Shown here in pieces: positions 571 through 27,891 of a stretch of DNA of 34,125 bases. Below the pieces are notes generated by a model. The model saw only the letters and a list, made by a program, of their open reading frames with translations. It searched no databases and had not been told where the DNA came from. The position numbers were made by a program, and so were the translations under genes. Within the stretch, counting starts at the first letter, position 1. Every line of letters starts with the position of its first letter. Source of the stretch: Lachnospiraceae bacterium (GTDB taxonomy: Bacteria > Bacillota > Clostridia > Lachnospirales > Lachnospiraceae); contig JAFSBX010000018.1 of NCBI GenBank assembly GCA_017437065.1, positions 1-34,125 on the forward strand, given 5' to 3'.

Positions 571-597
571 AAGAGGAGTGTGACAAATGCACACTCC
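571..597 (-). terminator. Terminator-like hairpin between the tandem RNA and the nuclease gene
   Basis: On the minus strand GGAGTGTG (597-590), a 7-nt loop and CACACTCC (582-575) form a perfect 8-bp stem, followed by TCTTT. The U-tract is short and interrupted, so some read-through into the gene starting at 565 is expected. A leaky terminator between an RNA and a toxin gene is the arrangement known from ToxIN-type loci. Confidence 0.6.
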
Positions 598-631
598 ATC
601 AAGAATTTCTTTTAAAAAGAGTTTTCTGCTG

Positions 632-782
632 GTTGTCAGCCTCGGTACCCAGTTAAGATACCTTTAACGACGTGGAAATCATTAAGTCCCCCACGTGGAC
701 TGCAGCTTTATCCAAGCTGTCAGGCTCAATGTCCGGTTAAGACATCTGATGATATGGAAATTTACCCTGCTCCATTTGCAGC
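632..782 (-). repeat. Two diverged direct-repeat RNA units
   Basis: Unit A runs 782-716 and unit B 706-632 on the minus strand. Shared blocks in order are GCTGCA, ATTTCCAYRTC, CTTAACYGG and GAGSCTGACARC. The segments between are different in sequence but keep pairing. Confidence 0.7.
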
Positions 783-832
783 CCAACTTTTAACGATGCT
801 CTTACATCGAGAACATTACTGTTCTTACCTAT

Positions 833-870
833 ATTATAATCAATTTAGTGAAAAAACAACAGATATCTGT
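833..870 (-). promoter_or_regulatory. Promoter of the tandem RNA with adjacent palindrome
   Basis: On the minus strand there is TTGTTT (859-854), a 15-nt gap and a consensus TATAAT (838-833). A perfect 12-bp palindrome ACAGATATCTGT covers 859-870, touching the -35 box, and could be an operator. The 15-nt spacing is short; shifting the -35 by one or two bases gives 16-17. Confidence 0.5.
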
Positions 871-998: not shown

Positions 999-3900
999 AT
1001 GAAGAAAAAGTGGAAAAGTGGACTTGCCTTATTTTTAGCCGGAGTTATTGCCTTAACACCGACAGTGGAGAGTATGGCAGCGAATTTATCGGTGGATAAT
1101 GCAACGGAAGTTGTTATTGCGGATGAAACTGTAGAAGACGGTAGTCGGGAGAATGAAAATACAGTAGAAATTGAGTCAGAAAGTGGAAAAGAAAGCATAC
1201 CGGAAACAGAAAATGAGACCGAAATAGCGTTGGAAACCGAGGTGGAAACGGAAAACGAAGTTGAAACAGGAGCCGAAAATGAGTCTGAAATTGAGACAGA
1301 ATCGGAATCTGAAACTAAGATTGAAAATGAAACAGAATTAGAAACTCAAATTGAGAATGAAACAGAAAGTGAAACGGAAACAGAAATTGCGACTGAGCCG
1401 GAAGTTGAAACGGAATCAGAAATTAATATAGAAATTGAAACAGAATTATCGCAGGAAACAGTGGCTGAAACAGAAACAATGACAGAAGAAGCTACTGAAT
1501 CAACAGGAGAGGAAGAAGAGAACGAATCCGGTCATAAAGAACCAAAGCTTGAAATGAATCTTTCCGCAGCAATGCAGGCAGAAAAGCGTGAACTCGCAGG
1601 AACTGCGGAGCATTTGACTGAGCTTCGGAAGGGGATTGAATATGTGGCAAATGAAGCAGTATTTATTGCTTCTTCTGAAAACTATGCGAAACGAGTTGCA
1701 GAAGGTTATGGTGCCTCATTATCAGCTTATGAAGATGGACTTGCAATCATGACCTTTGAAGATGAAGTAACAGAAATTATTGCGATGGCGGAAGATAATG
1801 AAGTAAAGCTTCCGGCGGTTTATCCGAATTATCTGTATACAGTTTATGGTGATGTGGATACCGCTTTAGTGGAAAGTGATGCCATGGCAACAGCAAGCGG
1901 TACAGATGCTATGTTGTCAAAGCAGTATTATCATGATGAGATTCATACAAAAGAAGCATGGAATTATAATTCTGCTGCCGGAAAAGGAATCAAGGTTGCG
2001 GTAATTGACAGTGGAATTAACAAAAGTCATGAAGATTTGAGCAAGAGAGTGGCTTCTGTAACAGTTACCCACAGTGAACCATATAACAAAAGTGAAGACA
2101 ATGATGGACAGGGAACACATGTGGCAGGGATTATTGCGGCAAACAGAAATAATGCAGTAGGCGGAGCCGGAATTGCATATAATGCATCTATTGTTTCCGT
2201 GAAAGCACTGGAAGAAAACCCATTGTTTCCGGAGGAAACAGCAGCCGGCAGTACTTCAAGTATTTTAAAAGCAGTAAATGCATCAGTGAAAAGCGGGGCA
2301 AGAGTTATTAATATGAGTTTTGGTGGCCGTTACTATGATGCGTTGCTTGAAGAAGCTGTAAATGAGGCAGTAAATAAAGGAATTGTTGTAGTTGCAGCTG
2401 CGGGAGATGAATCTATAGAATTATCAAATAATATCAGAGATATTCAAAACTATCGTTCACCTGCCAGTTTTGAAAATGTTATTACGGTATCATCAAAGAA
2501 AAATGGAAGTAGTTCGTTGGCAGCTTCCTCTAACTATGGAGCAGGTATCGTTGATATTACTGCACCGGGAGTGGGAATACTTTCCAGTGTTCCGGCAAAT
2601 GTGTATGGGAAGAAATATGAAAGCATGAGTGGAACATCACAGGCTGCATCCATGGTGTCGGCGACAGCAGCATATATTCTTTCCGTAAATTCAGATTTAA
2701 AAAATAAGAAAAACAAACAAACGGTAGATACGATTAAAAAGATTTTGCAGGATTCAGCATCAAAAGAAGGGTTTAGTGATGCTTCTAAGTTTGGTGCGGG
2801 GCTCTTGAACGTGGAAGCAGCAGTGAAAATGGCGGCACCTTCAAAAGAAATTGGGACAGAACTGCAGGCACCTGTTGCGACAATCAATGGGATAGAGCTT
2901 AAAAATAATAATAAAGTACAGACGATTCAGCATACAGATTTTATTACACTTTCTGCTTTGCTGGGAGAAAATGTTGATGAAAATGTTAAGATTTACTATA
3001 CATTAAATGGAAAAACTCCGACAGAAAACAGTACACTTTATACAGAGCCTTTCAAATTGGAAATGTCCGGTAATAAAACATTAAAAGTAATTGCCGTATA
3101 TTATGGAAAGAAAAGTAAAGTTACAACAATAAAAGTAAAAGTAAATGCTTACGCACAAAACTTTTCTATTACATCCAAATCGGGATATAATTGTGTATGT
3201 TCAGGGAAGAAACTGACTTTATCGGCAGGACAATGGGAACCTTCTTATACAACAAAGAAGAAAGTACAATGGTCCATTATTTCCGGTGGAGAGTATGCTC
3301 AAATTGATAAGAATAAAGGTATAGTGACAGCCAAGAATGTGGATGCAATACAGAAAGTAACAGTGCAGGCAATGGCAACTGACCAAAAAGAAGGACAGGC
3401 TGCGGCGACAATTGAGATTTCAATTATACCAAAAGTAAAGAGTTTGAGTTTAAAGAATGCGGCGGATAAAAAAGAAGTACAGATGAATTATCCGGCGACA
3501 AAGAAGATGGAAGTAGTGGTAAATCCTACAGGAACACCGATTGTTTATTCAAGTTCAAACAGTAAGGTTGCGACGGTAGATCCAGTAACAGGAATTATTA
3601 GTACAGTAGGAGCAGGAAAGGCAACAATTACTGCAAAGACAATAGACGGAAGTAATAAAAAGGTTACGATGAAAGTTAAAGTAACAAAAGCAGTTACTTC
3701 GGTCAAGGTAACTTCGAAAAATGGCGAGTATCAGGTTGCGGCCGGAAAGAAATTACAAATGGTTGCAACCATACCAAGCGATGCTTCAGATAAAAAAGTA
3801 AAATGGAGTATTACAAAAGGGGCAGAAGGAGTATCGATTTCAGATAAGGGTGTTCTTTCTGTGAATAAAACGAAAATTAAAGAAGTTACAAAAGTTACTG

Positions 3901-4856
3901 TAAGAGCTACCGCATGGAACGATGCACGGAAATATGACGACAAGGCAGTTACAATTTATCCTGTTGCTACTGATAAGATTACAATGGAAGGCAATAAGAC
4001 TACTTATCATCTTGGAACGATAAACAAAGGAGATTTGAAAACCGGCATACAGTTGTATCCTTATAGCAATAACTATACAGATGGTTTATTTGGAAGAAAA
4101 CAGGGAAGTGGTACAACTAATTTAGACAGGTTTACATATAAATCTACTAATACCAAGGTTGCAACAGTTAGTGAAAAAGGACTTGTGACTGCAAAAACAG
4201 CAGGAACTGCAAAGATAAAAATTACTGCAAGAGATGGAAGCGGAAAGAGCTTTACCTGTACTATAAAAGTTTTAAATCCGGTAATTAAAGTGGCTGTTTA
4301 TTCAAAGTCAGGCGTAGATTTTCTGGCAAAAGGAAAAACGATGTCCATGGGAGCGTTAGTATATGGCAATGCTTCTAATAATAAAATTGAATGGACAACT
4401 TCCAACAAGAAAATTGCCACGGTTAGTGCAGGCGGAAAAGTAACAGGCAAAGAATACGGTACAGCTGTTATTACTGCAAAGGCTTTAGATGGAAGCGGAA
4501 CAACAGGTTCATTTACGATAACAATAAAGCCACTCATTAAGAAACTGGGATATTTTGAAAAAGCGGAAAGCAGTAATTTGAAAACTACGATTAGTGATGT
4601 GATGTATGTGGATGAACATAAAGGGTTAGAACAGTTTATGCCTTATTATGTAGATGAATCTTCAAGTCAGATAAAATACGAAGATGTGGACAGTCTTGTA
4701 AGCTGGAAATCTACAAATATAAATGTGATCCAGATTGTGAGAGATAAAGATAGGAAGTTACAGGTAGTAGCAGTAAATCCGGGAAAAGCCGAACTTATAT
4801 TTAAAGCACTGGATGGTTCGGGCAAGACAGCAAAAGTAAAGATAACAGTAAAATAA
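999..4856 (+). CDS. Secreted S8 (subtilisin-like) serine protease with Glu/Thr-rich stalk and Ig-like (Big_2) repeats
   Basis: A 1285-residue exported protease. Residues 1-29 are a signal peptide (KKKWK, hydrophobic core, AAN). Residues 35-185 are a low-complexity stalk of E-T-E and E-N-E repeats, very acidic. A propeptide-like segment follows. The catalytic domain carries Asp337 in AVIDSG, His374 in GTHVAG and Ser547 in SGTSQAAS. The oxyanion-hole position, normally Asn in AAGNE, is Asp470 (AAAGDE). Around 630-720 a chitobiase C-terminal-like fold is suggested by YTLNGKTPTENS. From about 720 to the end come several Big_2-like Ig domains with SSNSKVATVDPVTGIIS and similar. There is no LPXTG anchor, so it is probably secreted or held non-covalently in the wall. 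It has its own promoter and terminator. Substrate is unknown. A peptidase S8 call is firm; activity is less sure because of Asp470. Confidence 0.93.
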   Translation: MKKKWKSGLALFLAGVIALTPTVESMAANLSVDNATEVVIADETVEDGSRENENTVEIESESGKESIPETENETEIALETEVETENEVETGAENESEIETESESETKIENETELETQIENETESETETEIATEPEVETESEINIEIETELSQETVAETETMTEEATESTGEEEENESGHKEPKLEMNLSAAMQAEKRELAGTAEHLTELRKGIEYVANEAVFIASSENYAKRVAEGYGASLSAYEDGLAIMTFEDEVTEIIAMAEDNEVKLPAVYPNYLYTVYGDVDTALVESDAMATASGTDAMLSKQYYHDEIHTKEAWNYNSAAGKGIKVAVIDSGINKSHEDLSKRVASVTVTHSEPYNKSEDNDGQGTHVAGIIAANRNNAVGGAGIAYNASIVSVKALEENPLFPEETAAGSTSSILKAVNASVKSGARVINMSFGGRYYDALLEEAVNEAVNKGIVVVAAAGDESIELSNNIRDIQNYRSPASFENVITVSSKKNGSSSLAASSNYGAGIVDITAPGVGILSSVPANVYGKKYESMSGTSQAASMVSATAAYILSVNSDLKNKKNKQTVDTIKKILQDSASKEGFSDASKFGAGLLNVEAAVKMAAPSKEIGTELQAPVATINGIELKNNNKVQTIQHTDFITLSALLGENVDENVKIYYTLNGKTPTENSTLYTEPFKLEMSGNKTLKVIAVYYGKKSKVTTIKVKVNAYAQNFSITSKSGYNCVCSGKKLTLSAGQWEPSYTTKKKVQWSIISGGEYAQIDKNKGIVTAKNVDAIQKVTVQAMATDQKEGQAAATIEISIIPKVKSLSLKNAADKKEVQMNYPATKKMEVVVNPTGTPIVYSSSNSKVATVDPVTGIISTVGAGKATITAKTIDGSNKKVTMKVKVTKAVTSVKVTSKNGEYQVAAGKKLQMVATIPSDASDKKVKWSITKGAEGVSISDKGVLSVNKTKIKEVTKVTVRATAWNDARKYDDKAVTIYPVATDKITMEGNKTTYHLGTINKGDLKTGIQLYPYSNNYTDGLFGRKQGSGTTNLDRFTYKSTNTKVATVSEKGLVTAKTAGTAKIKITARDGSGKSFTCTIKVLNPVIKVAVYSKSGVDFLAKGKTMSMGALVYGNASNNKIEWTTSNKKIATVSAGGKVTGKEYGTAVITAKALDGSGTTGSFTITIKPLIKKLGYFEKAESSNLKTTISDVMYVDEHKGLEQFMPYYVDESSSQIKYEDVDSLVSWKSTNINVIQIVRDKDRKLQVVAVNPGKAELIFKALDGSGKTAKVKITVK

Positions 4857-19045: not shown

Positions 19046-19615
19046 ATGAAATATGGATATTGCCGAGTAAGTACCAAAGGACAGTTAGACGGAAACAGCA
19101 TTGAAGAACAGACCACAGCTATTAAGAATGTATATTCTGATACGGAAATTATTGTAGAAAGCTATTCCGGGGCAAAGGAAAGACCTTTATTTAATCAGAT
19201 ATTAGATAAAACACAAAAAGGTGATTATGTAATCGTTACAAAACTGGATAGATTTTGCAGAACTACCAAAGAGGGATTGGAATATATCGACCTTTTACTT
19301 AATAAAGGTGTAAAAATCCATATCTTGAATATGGGGTTAATCGAAAGTAGTCCTATGGGAAGATTGATTGTAACCAATCTCCTAGCCTTTGCAGAATTTG
19401 AACGTGCTATGATTATCGAAAGAACGCAAGGCGGTAAAGCTATTGCAAAACAGAGAGCAGATTTTAAAGAGGGTAGACCACCCAAATACAACAAGAAGAA
19501 AATCAATCATGCCTTAGATTTGTTGGAATCCTATTCTTACAAGCAAGTTGAAGAATTGACCGGGATTAGCAAATCAACACTTATAAGAGCAAAGAGAAAA
19601 CAAGCCGTATCTTAA
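19046..19615 (+). CDS. Small serine recombinase (resolvase/invertase family)
   Basis: A 189-residue protein. The catalytic serine is Ser9 in YCRVSTKGQ; other family blocks are [34 protein letters not shown] and the long E helix with [14 protein letters not shown]-terminal Hin-type helix-turn-helix contains [16 protein letters not shown]. The length is normal for resolvases and invertases, far shorter than large serine integrases. Known members resolve dimers or invert DNA, so here it may resolve element multimers. The actual integrase is probably the tyrosine enzyme at the right end. It is the first gene of the element, with AAGGAAG upstream of the ATG. Confidence 0.92.
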
Positions 19616-19652
19616 AATCGCCAGTATAGAGAAAAATTATATATAAATTTTT

Positions 19653-19728
19653 AGAGCCAGTTAGTTAATGGTTCTTGAAAGTAATCTTTAGTTATGAACC
19701 CGACGCTATTTGTATGAGGTTCTTTTTT
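19653..19728 (+). terminator. Two hairpins after the serine recombinase gene
   Basis: AGAGCC/GGTTCT (19653-19675) has no T-run. The second, GAACC (19696-19700) with GGTTC (19718-19722), is followed by TTTTTT and looks like a terminator. The same AGAGCC...GGTTCT design recurs at 20806-20830. Confidence 0.55.
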
Positions 19729-19792
19729 ATTGTCCTAAGCATGACACAAAACTGCTTTTTTTACTTTGCCAAAATGAAAGGAGAAACGAAAA

Positions 19793-20278
19793 ATGAAATG
19801 GTTCAAAGGAGTAAAAACAATCGAAGAACTAAGAAAAATGTACCGGGAACTGCTAAAAGAACACCACCCGGACAATGGTGGTAATGTGTCAGATATGCAA
19901 GAAATAAACAGCGAATATGATGTGTTGTTTAAACGTATATCAGCCTCATTTAAAGAGGAAAAAACATCAGATAACCAATCTTATACCTACGATAAAGACG
20001 AGGAAAATAAGGCATTTAAAGAGGTTATAAACCGGATAATTAACATCAATGCAGATATAGAAATTATCGGTCTTTGGGTGTGGGTTCATGGTGGATATGA
20101 GTACCGAGAACTGTTGAAATCCATAGGTTTTAAGTATGCACCGAAGAAAAAATGTTGGTGTTGGCACTTTGGAGAATATCGCAGACACAGCAAAACAGAA
20201 GTGTCTTTAGATGATATTAGGAACAAATATGGGTCACAAAAAGTAAAGAATAAAACAAGGCAATATGTCTTGAATTAA
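19793..20278 (+). CDS. J-domain (DnaJ-like) small protein
   Basis: 161 residues. The N-terminal 60 or so form a short J domain with the HPD motif at 25-27 (EHHPDNGG) and helices TIEELRKMYRELL and MQEINSEYDVLF. The rest has a conserved-looking aromatic core, GLWVWVHGGYEYRELLKSIGFKYAPKKKCWCWHFGEYR, described here only by its ends and centre. J domains stimulate Hsp70 ATPase activity; a plausible role is to recruit host DnaK to an element protein such as Rep, as lambda and P1 do. AAAGGAG at 19777-19783 fixes the start. It begins a run of small genes. The J-domain call is good; the partner is unknown. Confidence 0.85.
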   Translation: MKWFKGVKTIEELRKMYRELLKEHHPDNGGNVSDMQEINSEYDVLFKRISASFKEEKTSDNQSYTYDKDEENKAFKEVINRIININADIEIIGLWVWVHGGYEYRELLKSIGFKYAPKKKCWCWHFGEYRRHSKTEVSLDDIRNKYGSQKVKNKTRQYVLN

Positions 20279-20293
20279 GGGGGTGAGAATTAC

Positions 20294-20485
20294 ATGAGTA
20301 AAGAGGATTTTATCAAAATATTTGAAATGACACTACTATCTGCCAATCTTGAAGTTACCGGGTTATCCCTTATTGATGATGATAACGTACTGATTCATTT
20401 TAAAGGTGGTGGTAGAAAAAGGGTAAACATAACCGCAGACAGTTATGGAGCAATCGTTTTAGACATTATGAAGTATGTATTTTAA
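20294..20485 (+). CDS. Hypothetical protein of 63 residues
   Basis: A short protein (MSKEDFIKIFEMTLLSANLE...) with mixed helix and strand, no signal peptide and no motif I recognise. The ribosome site GGGGGTGA lies upstream, 16 nt after the J-domain gene stop, so it is in the same operon. The next gene starts 19 nt after its stop. Confidence 0.65.
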   Translation: MSKEDFIKIFEMTLLSANLEVTGLSLIDDDNVLIHFKGGGRKRVNITADSYGAIVLDIMKYVF

Positions 20486-20504
20486 GGAAAGAGAGGATTT
20501 TATT

Positions 20505-20807
20505 ATGAACACAGAAATTAAAACATTAAAGGGTTGGAATGAATTTGCAGAACAGACCGGAAAATACAGTTGGTACGAATATGCAAAGGTTGGTGATATT
20601 GTTGATGAAAGTATTATAGACAATTTTACAAATATTCTGCCACCAAAAACCATGTCTTACGGATATTTGCAAGTCGGTGAACCTTACAGCCATAGATATG
20701 ACCTTGACCGCAGATTAAAGCCAACTTACATGACCTTTGCTAAATGTGATGGAATTTGGAGATATTATGGACACTGTTTTTCTTATGAAACCATTAACCG
20801 AGATTAG
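20505..20807 (+). CDS. Hypothetical protein of 100 residues
   Basis: Starts MNTEIKTLKGWNEFAEQTGK at the ATG at 20505, with GAGAGG at 20491-20496; the frame opens earlier at 20475, but that lies within the preceding gene. Rich in aromatic residues (SWYEYAK, YGYLQVGEPYSHRYD, IWRYYGHCFSYE). No family recognised. It is followed at once by a terminator hairpin. Confidence 0.65.
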   Translation: MNTEIKTLKGWNEFAEQTGKYSWYEYAKVGDIVDESIIDNFTNILPPKTMSYGYLQVGEPYSHRYDLDRRLKPTYMTFAKCDGIWRYYGHCFSYETINRD

Positions 20808-20838
20808 AGCCTATTTACATAGTAGGTTCTATTTTTTT
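20806..20838 (+). terminator. Terminator after the 100-residue gene
   Basis: AGAGCCTA (20806-20813) pairs with TAGGTTCT (20823-20830, one G-U), followed by TTTTTTT (20832-20838). Confidence 0.75.
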
Positions 20839-20862
20839 GCTTTAGAAAGGGGGTGAAACATT

Positions 20863-21036
20863 ATGTGTATGATGAATTATCAGCCAGTAAATGAATATTG
20901 CAGTCCTTGTGGCAGATGTCCGGAATATCTTTGCAGTTGTATGCCCGTTGTTGTGAATGGATTGGTTGCCGGGGAATGCGATTTGATTGCTTGTGAATTT
21001 TGTAATTATGAGGATTGCCAAGAAAGGAACTGTTAA
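20863..21036 (+). CDS. Very Cys-rich small protein (57 residues, 11 cysteines)
   Basis: A reading frame from ATG 20863 to TAA 21034-21036. Cysteines fall at 2, 13, 16, 19, 24, 26, 39, 44, 47, 52 and 57, giving CSPCGRCPEYLCSC and CEFCNYEDC. The CxxC and CxC spacing suggests zinc or iron-sulfur binding. There is no signal peptide, so it is probably cytoplasmic. A strong ribosome site GGGGGTGA lies 7-14 bases upstream. The next gene starts two bases after its stop. I know no named family for it. Confidence 0.6.
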   Translation: MCMMNYQPVNEYCSPCGRCPEYLCSCMPVVVNGLVAGECDLIACEFCNYEDCQERNC

Positions 21037-21038
21037 AG

Positions 21039-21302
21039 ATGAAGTTATTAAATTACGACCACCGGGAACTCATTATGCAGAATGTCCGGTCTACTACAAA
21101 AGAAATACCACCAACATACACCAAAAGCCAGTACAAAATCTTATGCCGATTTATCCGACAAAAACGGATTACAAAGCAGTTTTTTGATTTTTTGTTGCTA
21201 CAACTATTTGATTTATTAGATTGGAGACAACTGGATTATTCGCAGATGTACCAATTGATTCACATTTTAACTTATTGGAATTACGGAAAGAGAGGAAACT
21301 AA
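21039..21302 (+). CDS. Hypothetical protein of 87 residues
   Basis: Starts MKLLNYDHRELIMQNVRST at ATG 21039, two bases after the Cys-rich gene, with AAAGGA at 21023-21028. The central part is hydrophobic and aromatic (FFDFLLLQLFDLLDWRQL), followed by YSQMYQLIHILTYWNYG. It could be amphipathic or membrane-associated. No family recognised. An alternative frame over 20987-21187 has no ribosome site and breaks the tight gene spacing. Confidence 0.6.
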   Translation: MKLLNYDHRELIMQNVRSTTKEIPPTYTKSQYKILCRFIRQKRITKQFFDFLLLQLFDLLDWRQLDYSQMYQLIHILTYWNYGKRGN

Positions 21303-21305
21303 ATT

Positions 21306-21545
21306 ATGTCAGAATTATTAGTAGAAATTTTTAATCATCTTTTGGAAAGAGATGAGGATGCAAAAGAAATGCAGAATAAGGTAAATTTGGAATTGGAACG
21401 TATGTTGATTCCATATAAGAATAAATTTACGGAAGAAGAAAAGGAAAAAGCATATACTTTTCTTTATGATATAGTGTATATTTCAGAACGTGAAGCTGTG
21501 CTATACGGAATAAAACTAATGATGAAATTATTTTTAGAACTATAA
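21306..21545 (+). CDS. Hypothetical helical protein of 79 residues
   Basis: MSELLVEIFNHLLERDEDAKEM..., with EEEKEKAYTFLYDIVYISEREAVLYGIKL near the end, is almost all helix and rich in Glu and Lys. GAGAGG lies upstream of the ATG and the preceding gene ends three bases before it. It resembles small helical proteins common in Firmicutes mobile elements (possibly the DUF6809 type, from memory only). Its 3' end overlaps the convergent repressor gene by 6 bp. Confidence 0.65.
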   Translation: MSELLVEIFNHLLERDEDAKEMQNKVNLELERMLIPYKNKFTEEEKEKAYTFLYDIVYISEREAVLYGIKLMMKLFLEL

Positions 21546-21857
21546 AACTTTGGCTATTCTTAGCAATGTTTCCAGTTTCACATTATCCATATCTTTAATC
21601 GTATTGAGCAGTTCTTTTTCTATTACAGAGGTCGGATTTGAATATTCATTTTCCAACAGATAATCTAATGTTATTCCCAAAGTATTACAAATAGACACAA
21701 TCAAAGTAAGACTAACCTTTACTTTGTTAGTTTCAATGTTGCTAATATGGGAAACATTCACATTTGTTGCATTAGCAAGAAATTCTTGTGTTAAATGTTT
21801 TTCACATCTGACCTCTTTAATCCGCTGACCGATTAGAGCAAAATTAAGTTCTTTCAT
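21540..21857 (-). CDS. XRE-family transcriptional repressor
   Basis: 105 residues with an N-terminal Cro/C1-type helix-turn-helix (9-70): IGQRIKEVRCEKHLTQEFLA, then NVSHISNIETNKVKVSLTLI and LGITLDYLL. A short helical tail follows. It is read opposite to the rest of the element and divergent from the large gene at 22018, the usual place for the regulator that keeps an element quiet. A TATAAT (21896-21891 on the minus strand) lies upstream; the ribosome site is weak (AAAGTGG). Confidence 0.9.
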   Translation of the reverse strand: MKELNFALIGQRIKEVRCEKHLTQEFLANATNVNVSHISNIETNKVKVSLTLIVSICNTLGITLDYLLENEYSNPTSVIEKELLNTIKDMDNVKLETLLRIAKVL

Positions 21858-22017
21858 AAAATTGCACCACTTTCTATAAATATTAATGCAATTATAGTAT
21901 TTGTTTAGTTTTGGAATAATAATGCAAAACTAGAAAATATATAGTGTAAAATTAAGTGTGGTGTTATAATGACGATATATAAGGTATGCAGAATTATTAT
22001 TACGAAAGGAAATGAAT
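21858..22017. promoter_or_regulatory. Divergent control region of the element
   Basis: The rightward promoter is an extended -10 (TGTTATAAT, 21962-21970) with a weak -35. The leftward promoter has TATAAT at 21896-21891. Matching words GCACCAC near the repressor start (about 21864-21870) and GTGGTG beside the rightward -10 (about 21958-21963) are candidate operator half-sites. Confidence 0.5.
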
Positions 22018-23736
22018 ATGTTTGAGAGTTTTAAGAAATTATTTAAGAAACCTACTGTTCAACAGCAAAATCAAATAACCAAAGTATCTGTAGAAATGTA
22101 TAGGGATACGTTAAGAAGATATTATGAGAGATATGAGAACAATGTATTTCAGCAGAATATTTTATTAATGTTACATAATCATACAGGGTATAGCATTGAA
22201 CAAATAAGGCATGATTTGAAAGAGATACGGAAAGAATTGGGATATGTTACTGTTAATGGGCAGAATGTAAAAATAAATTCTAATCCGATTAGTAATGAGG
22301 AATATCTTTTACAGTTAGCGGAATTGTATCTTAAATTTGGTAATAATGCATTTCAACGTCTTAAAAGCATAAAGGAGCAAACCAACTATGATATCGAAAC
22401 TATCAAGCGTGATTTAACAAGCGTTCGTGACAGAATTAATAGAGAAGCTGTGGAAGAATATGCTTTAAAACATGGATTTCCAAAGAGCAATGCTGATAGT
22501 AAGAATATATCTATTGATAAAAGCAATAATACAAAATATGGAACAGCTACGTTTCAAGAGCAGTATTTTCAACAATTAAGACAGCTGTATCAGACTTATG
22601 GAAGTGTCGCTTTTCAGCGATTAGGTGAAATACAGAAACAAACGCAGTACCCTATGTATGTTATTAAACAGGATTTGAAAAAATTAAGGGAAGAAGAGTA
22701 TTCTTTACAGTTGGAAGAACTATGTATTAAATACGGAAAATCGGCTAAAAATCATACAAAAGAATTAGAAAGACATAGTGGATATACAAGAGATAAAATA
22801 GTTGCTGATTTAAAGAAAGTTCGACCGAAAGCAAGAAGCATAAATACGAACATTACTGTAACTGGTAGGGAAGAGATTAGTCATAATACTAATATCGGAA
22901 AAGAGCATGGGGAGGTTCAAACTGAGGTTTTGGAAGTATCTGAAGAAATCAATAAAAATGGAATGAAAAGGATGCTGGCAGTAACGATGAAGTGGGTAAT
23001 CCATTACACAGACGGAGACACATGGGTACAAACTAATACCTATCCGTATGATTATGATACTTTGTTTTATAAAAGAAAAGAAATTATTGAAGAATGTGTG
23101 ATGATTTATGGCGATAATATTGATTACATTGATTTTACGGTAATAGTGAGTAAAGGTGTTGAAACAAAATTAGACAGATACTTGCATAGAAAAATGAGCA
23201 GATTAGAAATTTCAATTAAATTAAATAAGGATAAAAACAAACTTTATGTGGAATGTTTTGATGATGAAACATGTAAAAATATTACAGATTTTAGGGACGC
23301 ATGGGTAGCATTGAATGGTATGAGGTATTATGGAGAAAATCTTGCAAAATATATGTGTGAATTAAGCCAAAAATCCGAGTATCATGGTGGTATGCCAGAG
23401 GTTATGTTTAAACTATCGTTACAATGCCTGCAATCACTAACACCAATACAGAGAGAAACATTAACACGTGCTTATGAATGGGGTGCAGAGCATAATAGTA
23501 TAGTTTTTTTATGTGATAAGAAAGAAATTTTGGATAATTATTTCTTTAAAAAGATTGCGGAGATATTTGGGGACGAGGGAAAAGTTTTACACATCTTTGA
23601 AGATGAAAGACTTAATAGCATTTATAAAAAATATGCAAATTATCATTTGAATATTGCAGATGACTATTATCGAACAAAAGACTGGAGAGGAAATTTAGTT
23701 TCACCATTAGATAATAGTATTACAATAATAAGATAA
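22018..23736 (+). CDS. Unknown element protein with four tandem helical (HTH-like) repeats
   Basis: 572 residues from ATG 22018; an ATG at 22012 is only one base from the ribosome site GAAAGGA (22004-22010). The N-terminal half has four related modules of 44-50 residues, at about 26-75, 95-140, 181-224 and 226-269. Each carries a pattern like LxxLYxxYGnxaFQrL, then TxYxIexIKxDLkkiR, so each may fold as helix-turn-helix. A short linker follows. The C-terminal half (from about 305) starts AVTMKWVIHYTDGDTW and has no motif I know. It is the first gene to the right of the divergent control region, so it is likely repressor-controlled. The repeats suggest binding to repeated DNA or to partner proteins; function unknown. 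Confidence 0.75.
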   Translation: MFESFKKLFKKPTVQQQNQITKVSVEMYRDTLRRYYERYENNVFQQNILLMLHNHTGYSIEQIRHDLKEIRKELGYVTVNGQNVKINSNPISNEEYLLQLAELYLKFGNNAFQRLKSIKEQTNYDIETIKRDLTSVRDRINREAVEEYALKHGFPKSNADSKNISIDKSNNTKYGTATFQEQYFQQLRQLYQTYGSVAFQRLGEIQKQTQYPMYVIKQDLKKLREEEYSLQLEELCIKYGKSAKNHTKELERHSGYTRDKIVADLKKVRPKARSINTNITVTGREEISHNTNIGKEHGEVQTEVLEVSEEINKNGMKRMLAVTMKWVIHYTDGDTWVQTNTYPYDYDTLFYKRKEIIEECVMIYGDNIDYIDFTVIVSKGVETKLDRYLHRKMSRLEISIKLNKDKNKLYVECFDDETCKNITDFRDAWVALNGMRYYGENLAKYMCELSQKSEYHGGMPEVMFKLSLQCLQSLTPIQRETLTRAYEWGAEHNSIVFLCDKKEILDNYFFKKIAEIFGDEGKVLHIFEDERLNSIYKKYANYHLNIADDYYRTKDWRGNLVSPLDNSITIIR

Positions 23737-23814
23737 ACTTGCGTTGGGGAGTTACCCCTAGTGTATGGTTACTAATATCTGTAGATTTCATAAAAAATGT
23801 AACATAAGGTTGCA

Positions 23815-23853
23815 GGAGATACTTCATATTGAGAGGTATCTCCTTTTCTTTTT
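23815..23853 (+). terminator. Terminator after the four-repeat protein gene
   Basis: GGAGATAC (23815-23822) pairs with GTATCTCC (23836-23843), followed by TTTTCTTTTT. Confidence 0.85.
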
Positions 23854-24328
23854 CGTATGGTGGAACTTACACCGGAGCAATAACTAAAATAAAGTATTCT
23901 GAAATAACATCATAGTTCTTAGGGGATTTTACTGCTACCTTGCAGGAAATAAAGTCAGTTTTACTCATAATTTGGTTAAAAGAATATACCGCCTAAAAGT
24001 CAAATCTGTCAAAGGGTCAAGTAGTCGTTAATGCACTTTAAGGAAATATCTTCTTGTAAAGGAAAACAAATTTAGTGAAAATGCAATATTTGCAAAGAGA
24101 ATTTGCTGTACGCGACTTTAATTAACAGACAATTTATAATTAAATTTGAAAAAGAAGTTATATTTTTGCGTTTATAATATGCTAAAAATACCCCTAAACG
24201 ATATGTAAATTTATGCGTCCGCTGTTTTGATAAGGTATTATGGGTGATAGAAACAACACCAACAACAAACGTATAAAGCTAGCTATTGTTTGTGTAGTTT
24301 CTAAATAATTATATGGAGGAAATTCAAA
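23854..24328 (+). other. Non-coding region ahead of the HTH gene, with nested inverted repeats
   Basis: No convincing gene in 475 nt. Three GTCAA words lie 8-9 bp apart (23999-24020). TATAAT boxes at 24135-24140 and 24173-24178 are possible -10 sites. Two nested inverted repeats, TAGAAAC/GTTTCTA (24248-24254, 24297-24303) enclosing ACAAAC/GTTTGT (24265-24270, 24288-24293), would form a long hairpin in the leader of the next gene. Just before this region, GGGG/CCCC (23746-23758) makes a small hairpin. The region could hold an origin or regulatory sites. Confidence 0.45.
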
Positions 24329-24520
24329 ATGAATAATGAACAAATAAGAGAAGTTATGCGTGAAAACAACATTTATATGTGGCAGGTGGCAAAGAAGTTG
24401 AATATTTATGAAACATCATTCTGCAAGTGGTTTCGTGAGGAACTTTCAGAGGAAAGAAAGAAACAGGTTTTGTCAGCCATTGAGGAAATTAAGTTAGACC
24501 GCTTAAAACAACAGAAGTAA
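24329..24520 (+). CDS. Small helix-turn-helix protein (63 residues)
   Basis: MNNEQIREVMRENNIYMWQV then AKKLNIYETSFCKWFREELS: a minimal helix-turn-helix of the XRE-like or Tn-associated type, with a basic helical tail. GGAGG sits upstream of the ATG. It lies 200 nt before the possible Rep gene, so it may regulate replication or transfer functions. Confidence 0.75.
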   Translation: MNNEQIREVMRENNIYMWQVAKKLNIYETSFCKWFREELSEERKKQVLSAIEEIKLDRLKQQK

Positions 24521-24540
24521 TGATGAGGAAGAATGACTTA

Positions 24541-24702
24541 TACAAATGTCCTTCGGAGTTTGTATTGTAGTCTTTAGGCTAACAGCAACAGCAGAAACCA
24601 ACGTATCTATGAAATGCATTAAATAAGCGTAAAATCAAGGATTTTCCACTTATTTAAAGACGGAAATGTAAAGTTTTGCGTTGCTGTATATACATAGTAT
24701 AT
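24541..24702 (+). other. Hairpin-rich region upstream of rep, candidate origin
   Basis: Three inverted repeats fall within 160 nt. TACAAA/TTTGTA (24541-24564) has a TTCG in its loop. TTAAATAAG (24619-24627) with CTTATTTAA (24649-24657) encloses a second stem AAAATC/GATTTT (24631-24645). ATATAC/GTATAT spans 24688-24702. Such stem-loops next to a rep gene are typical of rolling-circle origins or oriT sites. Confidence 0.45.
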
Positions 24703-24723
24703 GTCATTTGCAGGAGGTTTATA

Positions 24724-25782
24724 GTGCATACGTTTGAATTGAGTTGCAAAATATCTCCAGTTTCCTATCAGTATCTGCATGATAATCTTCCTCATCTTGT
24801 AAAAGTAAGCAATTATGTGGAGCGAACAAACTATTACTCTGCAAAGGGTGTTATGCAGATTGAATTGCGAACATATGAATATGCCAAATATGGAATGATG
24901 ATGAAACGATATTATCTTGTACTTCGGTGCAATCCGTCAATCATTATGGGGAAGAGTAAAATACTTCTCGTGGATTTAGAGGAATATTCTTCTACTGAAA
25001 TACTGGAAAAACTGATGAAGCGGATTTATGAGATTAATGAATTACGTTATATCCGACTGGATAAACAGCCAGTAGCATTGTTTCTAACAAGCAGGGCAGA
25101 TGTGGCAGCGGATATATTGGTTGATTTTCCACAGATTGTAGTATGGCTTTGTAATATGTCATTTCCGTATGGCTACCATAACATGAAGCGGAAAGCAATC
25201 AAGAAAGAAGCGGACAGATTATACATTGAGAGTTGTTGCTTTTGCAATGGTTCAAGAGCAATTAATATCTACTATAAAATGATTGCTCTCATTAACACAG
25301 GGAAAGAGATACCGACAGAAGAACAGGAGCAGATACAGCATGCAGTCCGACTGGAAGCACAGCTTGAAAAGAGAGGTATTTATAACATGAAGTTACCGAC
25401 AAAGCGTTCAATCGAACCATTTTTAGAAAAGGATTTCTGCCATAAATACCTTGAAAAAGAAATCAAAGCCATATTTGGCATACAAAAATATGTCAGCAGG
25501 GGAAAAGCGGTTGAAATGATTAACAACAGTCAGTACAAGCCATATGATAAAGCAGTCATGCTTTCAATTGTAGATATGATACATCAATTTAAAGGTTTGT
25601 ATGAACTGGAAAAAGCGATTGCAGACAGCAAAATACATACACCGCCTCAGTATGGAAATTTACGTTCATTTAAAGAGCGTTGGTTGAAGAAGTTTAAAAA
25701 TTTAGGCATACAGCCAATAACAATTCTCGATAGTTTGGGGATTGATGAAGTACCAAGTATCTATAATTTATTAAGAAAATAA
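24724..25782 (+). CDS. Possible rolling-circle replication initiator or relaxase
   Basis: 352 residues from GTG 24724, with AGGAGG at 24712-24717; an in-frame ATG at 24676 lies before the ribosome site. Features that recall phage/plasmid Rep proteins (CRI/gpII or Rep_trans type): YYLVLRCNPSIIMGKSK near 74-90, RLDKQP at 111-116, a tyrosine pair INIYYK at 180-185, and VRLEAQLEKRG at 208-218, similar to the conserved hRhExqL motif. The tyrosines could be the nicking residues. The upstream hairpins fit an origin. The assignment rests on pattern alone and is tentative; it could also be an unrelated element protein. Two small genes follow in the same operon. Confidence 0.5.
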   Translation: MHTFELSCKISPVSYQYLHDNLPHLVKVSNYVERTNYYSAKGVMQIELRTYEYAKYGMMMKRYYLVLRCNPSIIMGKSKILLVDLEEYSSTEILEKLMKRIYEINELRYIRLDKQPVALFLTSRADVAADILVDFPQIVVWLCNMSFPYGYHNMKRKAIKKEADRLYIESCCFCNGSRAINIYYKMIALINTGKEIPTEEQEQIQHAVRLEAQLEKRGIYNMKLPTKRSIEPFLEKDFCHKYLEKEIKAIFGIQKYVSRGKAVEMINNSQYKPYDKAVMLSIVDMIHQFKGLYELEKAIADSKIHTPPQYGNLRSFKERWLKKFKNLGIQPITILDSLGIDEVPSIYNLLRK

Positions 25783-25806
25783 TAAGGTGAAAAGGAGACT
25801 AAAAGT

Positions 25807-26091
25807 ATGGATAAGGAAATTATTATATACAACAAAGATGTTTTAAATGATATGAAGAGAGCGATAGCCAAAGATTTGCAAGAATTGTACCGCATATTTC
25901 CCGAAAAATATAGTGAGAGTAATGCTATGAAATTTTTAGATAAGGCTTTAATGAAATTAACAGAGGAATATGACGGAACAGATAATCAGTATATTGATTT
26001 TTGGGTATTAGCTTGTTTAACGGGAGACCTGTTGGTTGCGTTGACATTTTGTGATGAAAGCGTAGTTAATGGAATTATAGTTAGTGAATGA
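25807..26091 (+). CDS. Hypothetical protein of 94 residues
   Basis: MDKEIIIYNKDVLNDMKRAI... is a helical acidic protein without a recognised domain. AAGGAGA precedes the ATG. It starts 24 nt after rep and is followed 19 nt later by another small gene, so it belongs to the rep operon. Confidence 0.65.
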   Translation: MDKEIIIYNKDVLNDMKRAIAKDLQELYRIFPEKYSESNAMKFLDKALMKLTEEYDGTDNQYIDFWVLACLTGDLLVALTFCDESVVNGIIVSE

Positions 26092-26110
26092 AGAAAGAAA
26101 GGGTTAAAGT

Positions 26111-26407
26111 ATGATAACAAATTGTAGAAGCAAAATAATTGAAGATGAACAAGGAACACACATCATTCTTGATGAAGAAACAACGGAAAGTCTAAACGCT
26201 ATTGTAATGAAGACAAATACTTTTTTGATAGAACCATTAACAATGGAGCAGGGAGAAGAACTTATTGGTAGCATTATTGATTTTTACTTTTCACATAGCG
26301 ATGATGTGACAGAGTTTGAAGATTTTGTGGATTATATCGCAAGATTTATGGAGTTGCTTGCAGATAATATACACAGAAGAAGTACAAATATGGTAGCAGA
26401 CGAATAA
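26111..26407 (+). CDS. Hypothetical acidic protein of 98 residues
   Basis: MITNCRSKIIEDEQGTHIIL..., strongly acidic (many Glu and Asp) and helical, with no recognised motif. AAAGGG lies upstream. It is the last gene of the rep group before the attenuator-like region. Confidence 0.65.
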   Translation: MITNCRSKIIEDEQGTHIILDEETTESLNAIVMKTNTFLIEPLTMEQGEELIGSIIDFYFSHSDDVTEFEDFVDYIARFMELLADNIHRRSTNMVADE

Positions 26408-26441
26408 TATACTAACTGAATATAAGGAAAGGAAGTGGAAG

Positions 26442-26565
26442 ATGAGAAAATATACTACATACACAACAAAAGGTTAAGAGCCACCGACCAAAGTAAACTC
26501 TTAACCCATACAAAATGCAAGGAATACTCCTGCTAAAAGATTATAACATAGTGAGAGTATTCCTT
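26442..26565 (+). promoter_or_regulatory. Attenuator-like region: 11-codon ORF and two hairpins ahead of the excisionase gene
   Basis: A tiny ORF (26442-26477, MRKYTTYTTKG) has a good ribosome site (AAGGAAAGGAAG). Its stop codon lies inside the left arm of a perfect 9-bp hairpin, GGTTAAGAG/CTCTTAACC (26472-26480, 26498-26506). A second 11-bp stem, AAGGAATACTC/GAGTATTCCTT (26519-26529, 26555-26565), follows and could terminate, though its T-tract is weak. The layout suggests translation-coupled control of the excisionase and integrase genes. Confidence 0.5.
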
Positions 26566-26599
26566 TCTACATGAAAATGAGCGAAAGGAGAATATCGTA

Positions 26600-26809
26600 A
26601 TGATAGAAATAGAAAAAGTATTTTATTCTGCTACAGATATTGTTGAAATGTTGGATGTATCAAGAGCGACTGCTTACAAACTTATTCGTCAAATGAACAA
26701 TGAGTTACAGGCTTCGGGATATATTATTTTGCAAGGAAAAGTACCAAAAGCATATTTCAATCAGAAATGGTACGGATTAAACAAGACACAGTTGACAGAG
26801 GGTGCATAG
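26600..26809 (+). CDS. Excisionase-like helix-turn-helix protein
   Basis: 69 residues with a MerR-like winged HTH: YSATDIVEMLDVSRATAYKL, then QMNNELQASGYIILQGKVPK and YFNQKWYG. Proteins of this shape directly before a tyrosine integrase usually act as excisionases or directionality factors. GAAAGGAG lies upstream of the ATG. Integrase starts 29 nt after the stop, so the two are co-expressed. Confidence 0.8.
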   Translation: MIEIEKVFYSATDIVEMLDVSRATAYKLIRQMNNELQASGYIILQGKVPKAYFNQKWYGLNKTQLTEGA

Positions 26810-26838
26810 GCACTCTCTTTTTTGAAAGGAGATTTATT

Positions 26839-27891
26839 ATGCCTGCTTATAAAGATAAAGAAAGAGGTACATGGTGCTGTAAATTTTATTATGAAACTTG
26901 GGACGGACAGCGTAAGCATACTACCAAAAGAGGTTTTAAGACGAAAAAATTAGCATCGGAATGGGAGAATGAATTTAAGGCTTCTGTTAAAGCAGAAATG
27001 ACTATGACACTTGCTTCATTTACCAAAGTTTATTTCAATGATAAAAAGGGGGAGTTAAAGGAGCGAAGTATACGAAACAAAAAGTACATGATAGAAGCTC
27101 ATGTTCTTCCGTATTTTGGAGAGCGTAAGATGAATGAGATTACACCATCCGATATTATTCAATGGCAAAATATGATGAGAGAAAAACAATACTCTGAAAC
27201 TTATTTGCGAATGATACAAAATCAGATAACAGCATTATTTACTCATGCTTACAATATTTATGGTTTATCAAATAATCCATGTAAGAAAGTGAAGAAAATG
27301 GGAAAGGCAGATGCAAACAGACTGGATTTTTGGACAAAAGAAGAATATGATAAATTCATTGCTACAATAGAGCATGATGATAGATATTATACTTTGTTTG
27401 AAATCCTCTTTTGGACTGGCTGTAGAATTGGAGAAGTTTTAGCTTTAACAAAAGACGATATAGACTTTACTAACAATCGTATTCATATTACGAAAACATA
27501 TTATCGTATGAATGGTGAGGATATAATTACCACACCTAAGACGGAACAATCTGTAAGAACAATAGATATTCCCGAATTTTTAAAGAATGAAGTGGCTGAT
27601 TATGTAAGTCGGATATATGCGTGTACAGGAAGTCAAAGACTGTTTCCAGTAGTTGCAGAAGCGGTACAGCATAAAATGAAGCGTCATACAGAAAAGGCAG
27701 AGGTAAAGAAAATCAGAGTGCATGATTTAAGACACTCTCATGTTGCCTATCTGATATTTCAAGGTGTTCAGCCACTCATTATCAAGGAAAGATTAGGTCA
27801 CAGAGATATAAAAATTACGTTGAATACATACGGACATTTATATCCAAGTGAACAAAAGAAAGTCGCAGAGTTATTAAACAGCATGAAGTAA
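26839..27891 (+). CDS. int: Tyrosine recombinase, element integrase
   Basis: 350 residues from ATG 26839, with GAAAGGAG at 26824-26831; the frame opens 24 codons earlier but overlaps the excisionase gene. The N-terminus is an AP2-like arm-binding domain (WCCKFYYETWDGQRKHTTKR). A SAM-like core-binding domain follows at about 60-150. The catalytic residues are all present: Arg196 (TGCRIGE), Lys234 (TPKTEQS), His295 and Arg298 (HDLRHSH), His321 (LGHRD) and Tyr331 (NTYGHL). It is of the Tn916/ICE and phage integrase type. It sits next to the right attachment site and should catalyse insertion into and excision from tuf. Confidence 0.95.
   Translation: MPAYKDKERGTWCCKFYYETWDGQRKHTTKRGFKTKKLASEWENEFKASVKAEMTMTLASFTKVYFNDKKGELKERSIRNKKYMIEAHVLPYFGERKMNEITPSDIIQWQNMMREKQYSETYLRMIQNQITALFTHAYNIYGLSNNPCKKVKKMGKADANRLDFWTKEEYDKFIATIEHDDRYYTLFEILFWTGCRIGEVLALTKDDIDFTNNRIHITKTYYRMNGEDIITTPKTEQSVRTIDIPEFLKNEVADYVSRIYACTGSQRLFPVVAEAVQHKMKRHTEKAEVKKIRVHDLRHSHVAYLIFQGVQPLIIKERLGHRDIKITLNTYGHLYPSEQKKVAELLNSMK

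Follow-up and report, generated by a model that had tools for sequence, protein, structure and literature searches.

The minus-strand locus extending from 859 to 23 of the window (by which we mean the whole stretch of DNA analyzed, 34,125 nucleotides of a Lachnospiraceae bacterium) is best explained as a type III-like toxin-antitoxin module with a decayed toxin, a reading to which we give a probability of about 0.75. The locus comprises a promoter-like site, a structured RNA, a weak terminator and an open reading frame for a PBECR4 protein. The window spans an entire contig of its assembly, and the contig ends at window base 1.

The first-pass annotation of this DNA had suggested a type III-like reading, which is supported by the present analysis, and a restraint of the protein by the RNA, which we infer in the following form. 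In the intact copies of the module that exist in relatives, a single promoter would drive a short structured RNA that mostly ends at the weak terminator, and read-through would give a small amount of mRNA for the predicted PBECR4 RNase; the RNA would be made in excess because transcription mostly ends at that terminator. The RNA, built of head-to-tail pseudoknot units, would bind the RNase and block its activity, and the RNase would process the RNA at its A-rich ends. When the supply of RNA is lost, by loss of the plasmid or island or by phage takeover of transcription, the longer-lived RNase would be freed, cut RNA and halt growth.

Layout and structure of the window RNA

A minus-strand promoter had been proposed for this locus, and a promoter-like site does lie at 833-859, with TTGTTT at 859-854, a 15-base spacer and TATAAT at 838-833, though the -35 element is poor and the TATAAT was absent from the output of a generic promoter scan of 540-990. 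A TATAAT or near variant is also located 5' of the RNA in most relatives by pattern search (none in L115, L129 and L132). The structured RNA, which we propose as the antitoxin, follows on the same strand at 828-619 and is supported by an alignment, covariation and a covariance model. The two units described in the first-pass annotation are present and related to each other, but the RNA is longer than the two stems on which that description was based. A weak intrinsic terminator at 597-570 separates the RNA from the gene: its hairpin, GGAGTGTG/CACACTCC (597-590/582-575) with a short T-run, is the leaky terminator-like hairpin noticed before and was recovered by our custom script, though not by a stricter scan demanding at least five T in eight bases.

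The fold of the RNA region is more stable than expected (z -3.53; equal stability in 2 of 200 shuffles). We aligned 31 two-unit RNAs, including those of the window and of L037. RNAalifold, unaided, predicted 53 pairs from this alignment, with changes on both sides in 30 of them. Our own structure, which includes pseudoknots, groups 57 pairs into 11 helices; 97.2% of its cells are paired, a measure biased towards the structure because it was drawn from those same sequences, and both-side changes occur in 36 of the 57 pairs, which is the stronger evidence. None of 500 shuffles was as good, and shifting the partner columns by 1 to 3 left only 30-48% of the cells paired.

Two hairpins open the RNA, the first at 825-810 with both-side changes in all six pairs and the second, CGATG/CATCG followed by an A-run, at 809-794 with 100% of cells paired and both-side changes in one of five pairs. 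Each unit then combines an H-type pseudoknot with a hairpin whose loop is TTAACYG. The pseudoknot of unit 1 (781-752) pairs CTGC at 781-778 with GCAG at 770-767 and the loop at 777-771 with 758-752; its helices (4 and 5) show both-side changes in 2/4 and 5/7 pairs, with one mismatch in the window's own copy. It is followed at 746-728 by the stem GATGTC/GACATT (746-741/733-728) with the loop TTAACCG (helix 6, 4/6 pairs). A junction helix at 719-703 joins the end of unit 1 (CAGC, 719-716) to the start of unit 2 (GCTG, 706-703), with 100% of cells paired and both-side changes in 3/4 pairs (helix 7). In the pseudoknot of unit 2 (701-670), AGTCC at 701-697 pairs with GGACT at 689-685 and ACGTGG at 696-691 with CCACGT at 675-670 (helices 8 and 9, both-side changes in 4/5 and 5/6 pairs), and the stem GGTATC/GGTACC (662-657/649-644) with the loop TTAACTG occupies 662-644 (helix 10, 3/6 pairs). 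The two stems and their shared loop had been noticed before, as had a second covarying stem pair; the former covary across the 31 RNAs and the latter belongs to the two pseudoknots. The last hairpin, GCTG/CAGC at 640-628, carries in its loop CAAC (635-632), which pairs with GTTG (787-784) at the start of unit 1 (helices 3 and 11); this long-range GUUG/CAAC pairing is changed to GCCG/CGGC in L130 alone. The A-rich end region of the RNA, AGAAAAC at 627-621, is conserved in the 31-sequence alignment and is a candidate processing site.

A scan of the window against Rfam gave no family at its gathering score, and a loose threshold gave two chance-level rows only. A known riboswitch or small RNA was therefore rejected as the identity of the window RNA; a match to a known riboswitch family, which the first-pass annotation had held to speak against its reading, is thus missing at the gathering score. 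The drum model (RF02958) had no match in the window or in the window-type loci L103, L130, L133 and L134, and the abiF RNA model (RF03085) had none in the window or in nine loci of the window-type model, some of them weak. A nucleotide search of 98 related genomes with the window RNA returned the RNA itself and one 40-base match.

Some riboswitches have tandem units. This fact, together with the common strand and promoter and the position of the terminator just 5' of the gene, would also suit a cis-acting leader, either riboswitch-like or a protein-sensing attenuator, that sets read-through into PBECR4 and yields no separate RNA. Such a leader is unlikely, however, given the lack of an Rfam riboswitch match, and the terminator is a separate hairpin that by eye is not visibly exclusive with the last stem of the RNA; evidence from relatives, given below, also speaks against it. 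Base-pairing of the RNA with the toxin mRNA, as in a type I-like pair, might be suggested by the short RNA adjoining the gene, and 14 consecutive bases of the L122 RNA are complementary to the start region, a run that exceeds those of 60 shuffles. But the RNA lies upstream on the same strand as the gene, and in 16 of 17 window-type loci the longest complementary run was no longer than the longest obtained with shuffled mRNA, so that such a pair is very improbable; antisense action was rejected for this lack of excess complementarity.

The PBECR4 gene of the window

The 180-residue open frame at 565-23 (minus strand) matches Pfam PBECR4 (PF18813; E 2.8e-22, profile positions 1-148 of 188), in agreement with the PBECR4-like gene proposed before, but the gene is not intact. 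Its score is 80.4 bits against 101.3 for the full-length L103 (Pfam cut-off 27), and in relatives, L103 and L105 among them, the gene codes for about 210 residues. The window protein follows the full-length relatives to about residue 115, so that homology is limited to about 565-221, and then continues as unrelated sequence; by reading, the start codon of the relatives is out of frame in the window gene. All of 77 PBECR4 proteins have the His of an HLxG motif, and 75 have a Ser/Thr some 100 residues further on; the window gene and L025, both truncated C-terminally, are the exceptions. The window gene thus keeps the His and lacks the predicted catalytic Ser/Thr. In the accessible part of the paper on polyvalent phage proteins, His and Ser/Thr form the active site in five of six PBECR families, with PBECR4 not singled out (PMC5512222). 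The end of homology near 221 and the lost Ser/Thr suggest that the window probably holds an antitoxin that outlived its toxin: judging from the sequence, the RNA half alone still looks functional, and a working toxin is probably missing.

The first 220 bases of the window, where the 3' part of the toxin gene would be expected, are unrelated to PBECR4 and hold a TTATCCACA motif. The sequence here may stem from a rearrangement or from a join made in assembly. Elsewhere in the window, reading of the open frames revealed a large secreted subtilisin-like protease at 999-4856 that is oriented away from the RNA locus; its N-terminal stretch is rich in Glu and Thr, and its Ig-like domains are repeated. 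An apparent integrated mobile element lies at 19046-27891 between tuf and chemotaxis genes, with resolvase-like, small DnaJ-like, XRE-like regulator and excisionase-like frames and a tyrosine integrase.

The predicted structure of L103 is confident (mean pLDDT 87), but a sequence search gave no solved relative, and fold searches were weak, without a convincing match and with RelE and MazF at noise level only. The RNase fold is therefore a prediction from the Pfam name and the two conserved residues. The PBECR domains of polyvalent phage proteins are likewise predicted to be metal-independent RNases with His and Ser/Thr (PMC5512222, accessible part). PBECR4 genes here stand alone behind RNAs, whereas the accessible part of the same paper mentions solo versions in phages and no RNA partner (PMC5512222).

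Ten PBECR4 proteins from several clades scored above the Pfam cut-off to PBECR4 alone; the same panel had no PADLOC match, and its NCBIfam rows were far below the cut-off. No homology to ToxN, CptN or TenpN was found among these ten proteins with Pfam, PADLOC or NCBIfam, as expected from the earlier remark that the window protein does not look like ToxN. A ToxN-type toxin was rejected for want of a sequence match, with no solved relative and weak fold searches.

PBECR4 genes and structured RNAs in relatives

A three-protein alignment was searched against genome contigs (one genome per species) and viral contigs, which yielded 31 genome-contig loci and two viral-contig loci. Going by titles, most of the former are from Lachnospiraceae, two from Oscillospiraceae and one from Selenomonadaceae. 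The window-type RNA lies upstream of PBECR4 in all 33 loci, with two units in 29 and one unit in four (L119, L120, L121 and L128). It is hardly conceivable that RNA and gene are neighbors by chance or as shared mobile cargo, an idea to which the existence of solo RNAs lends something, in view of this 33/33 and of the agreement between RNA class and protein clade, which needs the minimum number of changes (see below).

We then considered two genome samples. Of 299 genomes of the family 57 carry PF18813, as do 29 of 391 genomes of the class (the samples overlap in part), and upstream sequence was read at 70 loci fetched from the family sample and most of the class sample. The order of promoter, structured RNA, terminator and gene recurs there with quite different RNAs. 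The first-pass annotation had reasoned that homologues lacking the RNA would count against it; a structured RNA, often of another class, is located upstream of 64 of the 65 near-full PBECR4 genes, and the sole exception, L145, lacks its own N-terminus (the first 15 profile positions). Among 27 broken genes 20 retain the RNA, L049 being counted as without it since only the terminator remains. These 92 loci omit L069 and the repeat copies L149, L151, L157, L159 and L163, and every locus was scored as having an RNA except those on a by-eye list of seven, which means by class label in 76/92 and by reading in 8/92. A near-full toxin is thus almost never without an RNA and an RNA is often without a working toxin, as an antidote predicts.

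Within the window class, an intact gene stands behind 25 of 30 two-unit RNAs and behind none of four single-unit RNAs (p 0.0027, a generous value because some broken loci share descent); the other 5/30 two-unit RNAs precede a broken gene, and the window is one further such case. A terminator-like hairpin with a score of at least 20 precedes 79 of 96 PBECR4 genes, whereas among the control open frames from the same loci 11 of 42 have one, in a comparison where the control stretch was 30 bases longer and the 96 loci included the near-copies L149, L151 and L163 and the false hit L069. The script misses long loops, and several of the 17 uncalled PBECR4 loci show a terminator by eye. A terminator before the toxin gene is therefore a family-wide feature, weak in the window itself.

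PBECR4 relatives also occur on 80 plasmid records, of which 74 are from Enterococcus and 55 were typed as conjugative; the one Enterococcus record that was read, L167 (NZ_OR251469.1), has tandem repeats and a terminator upstream of PBECR4. Two of three PBECR4 queries had no match among phage records, and the third matched one record. RNA-protein pairs can act as effectors in other defence systems. The patchy distribution in the genomes and the presence on plasmids and viral contigs would also be in place if the RNA were a guide, sensor or cofactor that activates the nuclease against invaders and not an antidote. We think this quite unlikely, because near-full proteins without RNA are almost absent and RNA without a working protein is common, an asymmetry that argues against activation since a mere cofactor could be lost without harm. 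Moreover, the window-type RNA has no obvious variable guide region, with a mean column identity of 84%.

The window-type RNA is not tied to PBECR4 in every genome. Its model gave 16 matches in the 299 genomes, namely four PBECR4 loci, one remnant, seven strong solo RNAs and four weak matches. An RNA before unrelated genes had been named in the first-pass annotation as a point against its reading: the four PBECR4 loci and the remnant are in its favor, and the seven strong solo RNAs are not, although they have no downstream gene in common. Their neighbors are CobO-like (by eye) or Abi_2 genes, or there is none. Such varied neighbors speak against a riboswitch for one pathway and fit antidotes that outlive their toxins. 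In addition, the solo loci L172, L174, L176 and L178 keep the TATAAT-like box, the structure and the terminator with no PBECR4 behind, which is a further argument against a cis-acting leader.

One solo RNA, at 1501-1695 of L181, lies with a terminator 5' of an Abi_2 gene (Pfam E 5e-19). The window-type model scored at none of 30 other Abi_2 loci; 20 more Abi_2 loci gave only L224, at chance level and on the far side of the gene, and 20 loci with relatives of the L181 Abi_2 protein gave only the same place again (L236). Abi_2 was accordingly rejected as a second partner, and L181 was taken as a chance neighborhood. Another RNA of this type, at 1501-1702 of L179, is directly 5' of a small open frame and a 193-residue one, which by eye resemble an acetyltransferase toxin pair, though Pfam matches neither.

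RNA classes, proposed ring pairing and relation to known systems

At least six classes of RNA precede PBECR4. The commonest in the family sample is drum (RF02958), an orphan small RNA of Rfam that is of a different class from the window RNA. When coordinates were compared in the 299 genomes, 23 of 30 drum matches were directly before a PF18813 match; of the other seven, L076 is at a contig edge, L079 precedes a C-terminal remnant of PBECR4 and five have no recognizable PBECR4. With cmscan, drum was found before PBECR4 in 11 of the 18 loci scanned first and, in a later set, above threshold in 9 of 17 loci, one of them viral, where L054 is exactly at threshold and L150 and L152 are near-copies. 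The drum matches are single units without tandem repeats. A 2017 paper in NAR is said to describe drum and may contain an earlier remark on its gene context. In the accessible parts of the drum-related literature, which includes the Rfam database paper (PMC7779021), drum serves only as a folding example with no function given (PMC7657543, PMC12510878).

Three further classes were seen, one in L038, L045, L046, L048 and L051, one in L041 and L060, and one in L061, L064, L065 and L067. Rfam scans upstream of L041, L048, L051, L061, L064 and L067 gave no fitting RNA family, and the rows of L051 were animal microRNAs only, below threshold.

The classes follow the protein tree. On a quick tree with long branches, made from 77 of 111 proteins after unclassified and short ones were dropped, the labels of six RNA classes need 5 changes, which is the minimum, against a mean of 39.1 for shuffled labels and with none of 200 shuffles as low as 5. 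The labels came from Rfam, from patterns and partly by hand (L027, L054, L059, L067, L153-L156 and L162), L153 and L154 being below the drum gathering score and L155 and L156 without a drum match. The window class and the C class each form a single group with support 99 and the A class one with support 82; drum is not one group because classes E and F nest inside it. At least six RNA classes that follow protein clades fit co-evolution of RNA and protein better than the sensing of a ligand by a cis-acting leader.

Units of the A class are arranged in tandem, measure about 50 nt and end with GTTG-loop-CAAC and an A-run, so that A-runs flank the units. The leader of L027, placed in this class by hand, has its repeats broken up by a long stretch. 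Pairing between units was counted in 20 of 24 A-class loci, some of them close relatives; L025, L027, L032 and L147 were left out. Unit 1 has a loop that can pair with the beginning of unit 2 in 17/20 loci by Watson-Crick pairs alone, with seven sequence types, and in 19/20, with eight types, when G-U is allowed. Between the loop of unit 2 and the start of unit 1, pairing is seen in 20/20. The first of these is the cleaner result, because the choice of the unit 1 start among four tetramers favors its pairing. The within-unit alternatives pair in 3 and 2 of 20 loci (12 and 2 with G-U), and when partners were re-dealt the means were 3.9 and 12.5, the observed number being reached in none of 2000 trials. 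The window class is connected in the same way, through GUUG/CAAC and CAGC/GCUG. From these sequence patterns, we read the chain of units in both classes as closed into a base-paired ring. In ToxIN complexes, toxin and RNA together form a ring (PMC5086642, accessible part), and no description of ring closure by RNA base pairs was found in the parts of the literature covered.

The arrangement had been compared with type III systems before, and promoter, tandem units, pseudoknots, terminator and nuclease gene indeed come in the matching order. According to the accessible part of PMC5086642, ToxIN, CptIN and TenpIN likewise have a promoter, a tandem pseudoknot RNA, a Rho-independent terminator and an endoribonuclease gene, and a published type III screen required tandem repeats, then a terminator and behind it a gene homologous to ToxN. 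Tandem RNA repeats are present in the window class and the A class, not in drum, and both pseudoknot stems covary in the window class. On the other hand, the protein here is PBECR4, and the RNA units are larger and of several unrelated classes. The PBECR4 module would thus work like a type III system, of which, with no ToxN homologue, it is a candidate member only. The closest precedent is the AbiF system, where the motif occurs twice and is followed by a terminator and the toxin gene: in the accessible part of PMC12373285, the AbiF RNA of C. difficile (RCd22, RF03085) has two copies of the Rfam motif and a terminator and neutralizes its toxin by direct binding. The toxin of that system is Abi_2, however, and its RNA belongs to another family.

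The word PBECR4 was absent from the literature searched, a scope with many subscription journals and all bioRxiv preprints outside it. No description of PBECR4 paired with a structured RNA was found among the matches listed (titles and abstract openings) for type III, drum and related terms, and the pairing is unmentioned in the accessible parts of papers on RelE-like toxins (PMC11980606) and designed type III pairs (PMC12804078).

These sequences are best read as a type III-like toxin-antitoxin group of large size, in which both the toxin family and the RNAs are new. We lean towards the broader view that PBECR4 is an unrecognised superfamily of RNA-restrained toxins, present in Clostridia, Negativicutes, Enterococcus plasmids and phages. 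Its RNAs would belong to at least six unrelated families, drum being one, each tied to a protein clade, and those of the two tandem classes would form a base-paired ring able to stay together even when cut into units. If this is true, drum RNA would gain a function and RNA-antitoxin systems a new toxin family. It would also mean that several unrelated RNA solutions exist to one protein target, and tandem antitoxin RNAs would be seen to assemble by a new principle, that of ring pairing.
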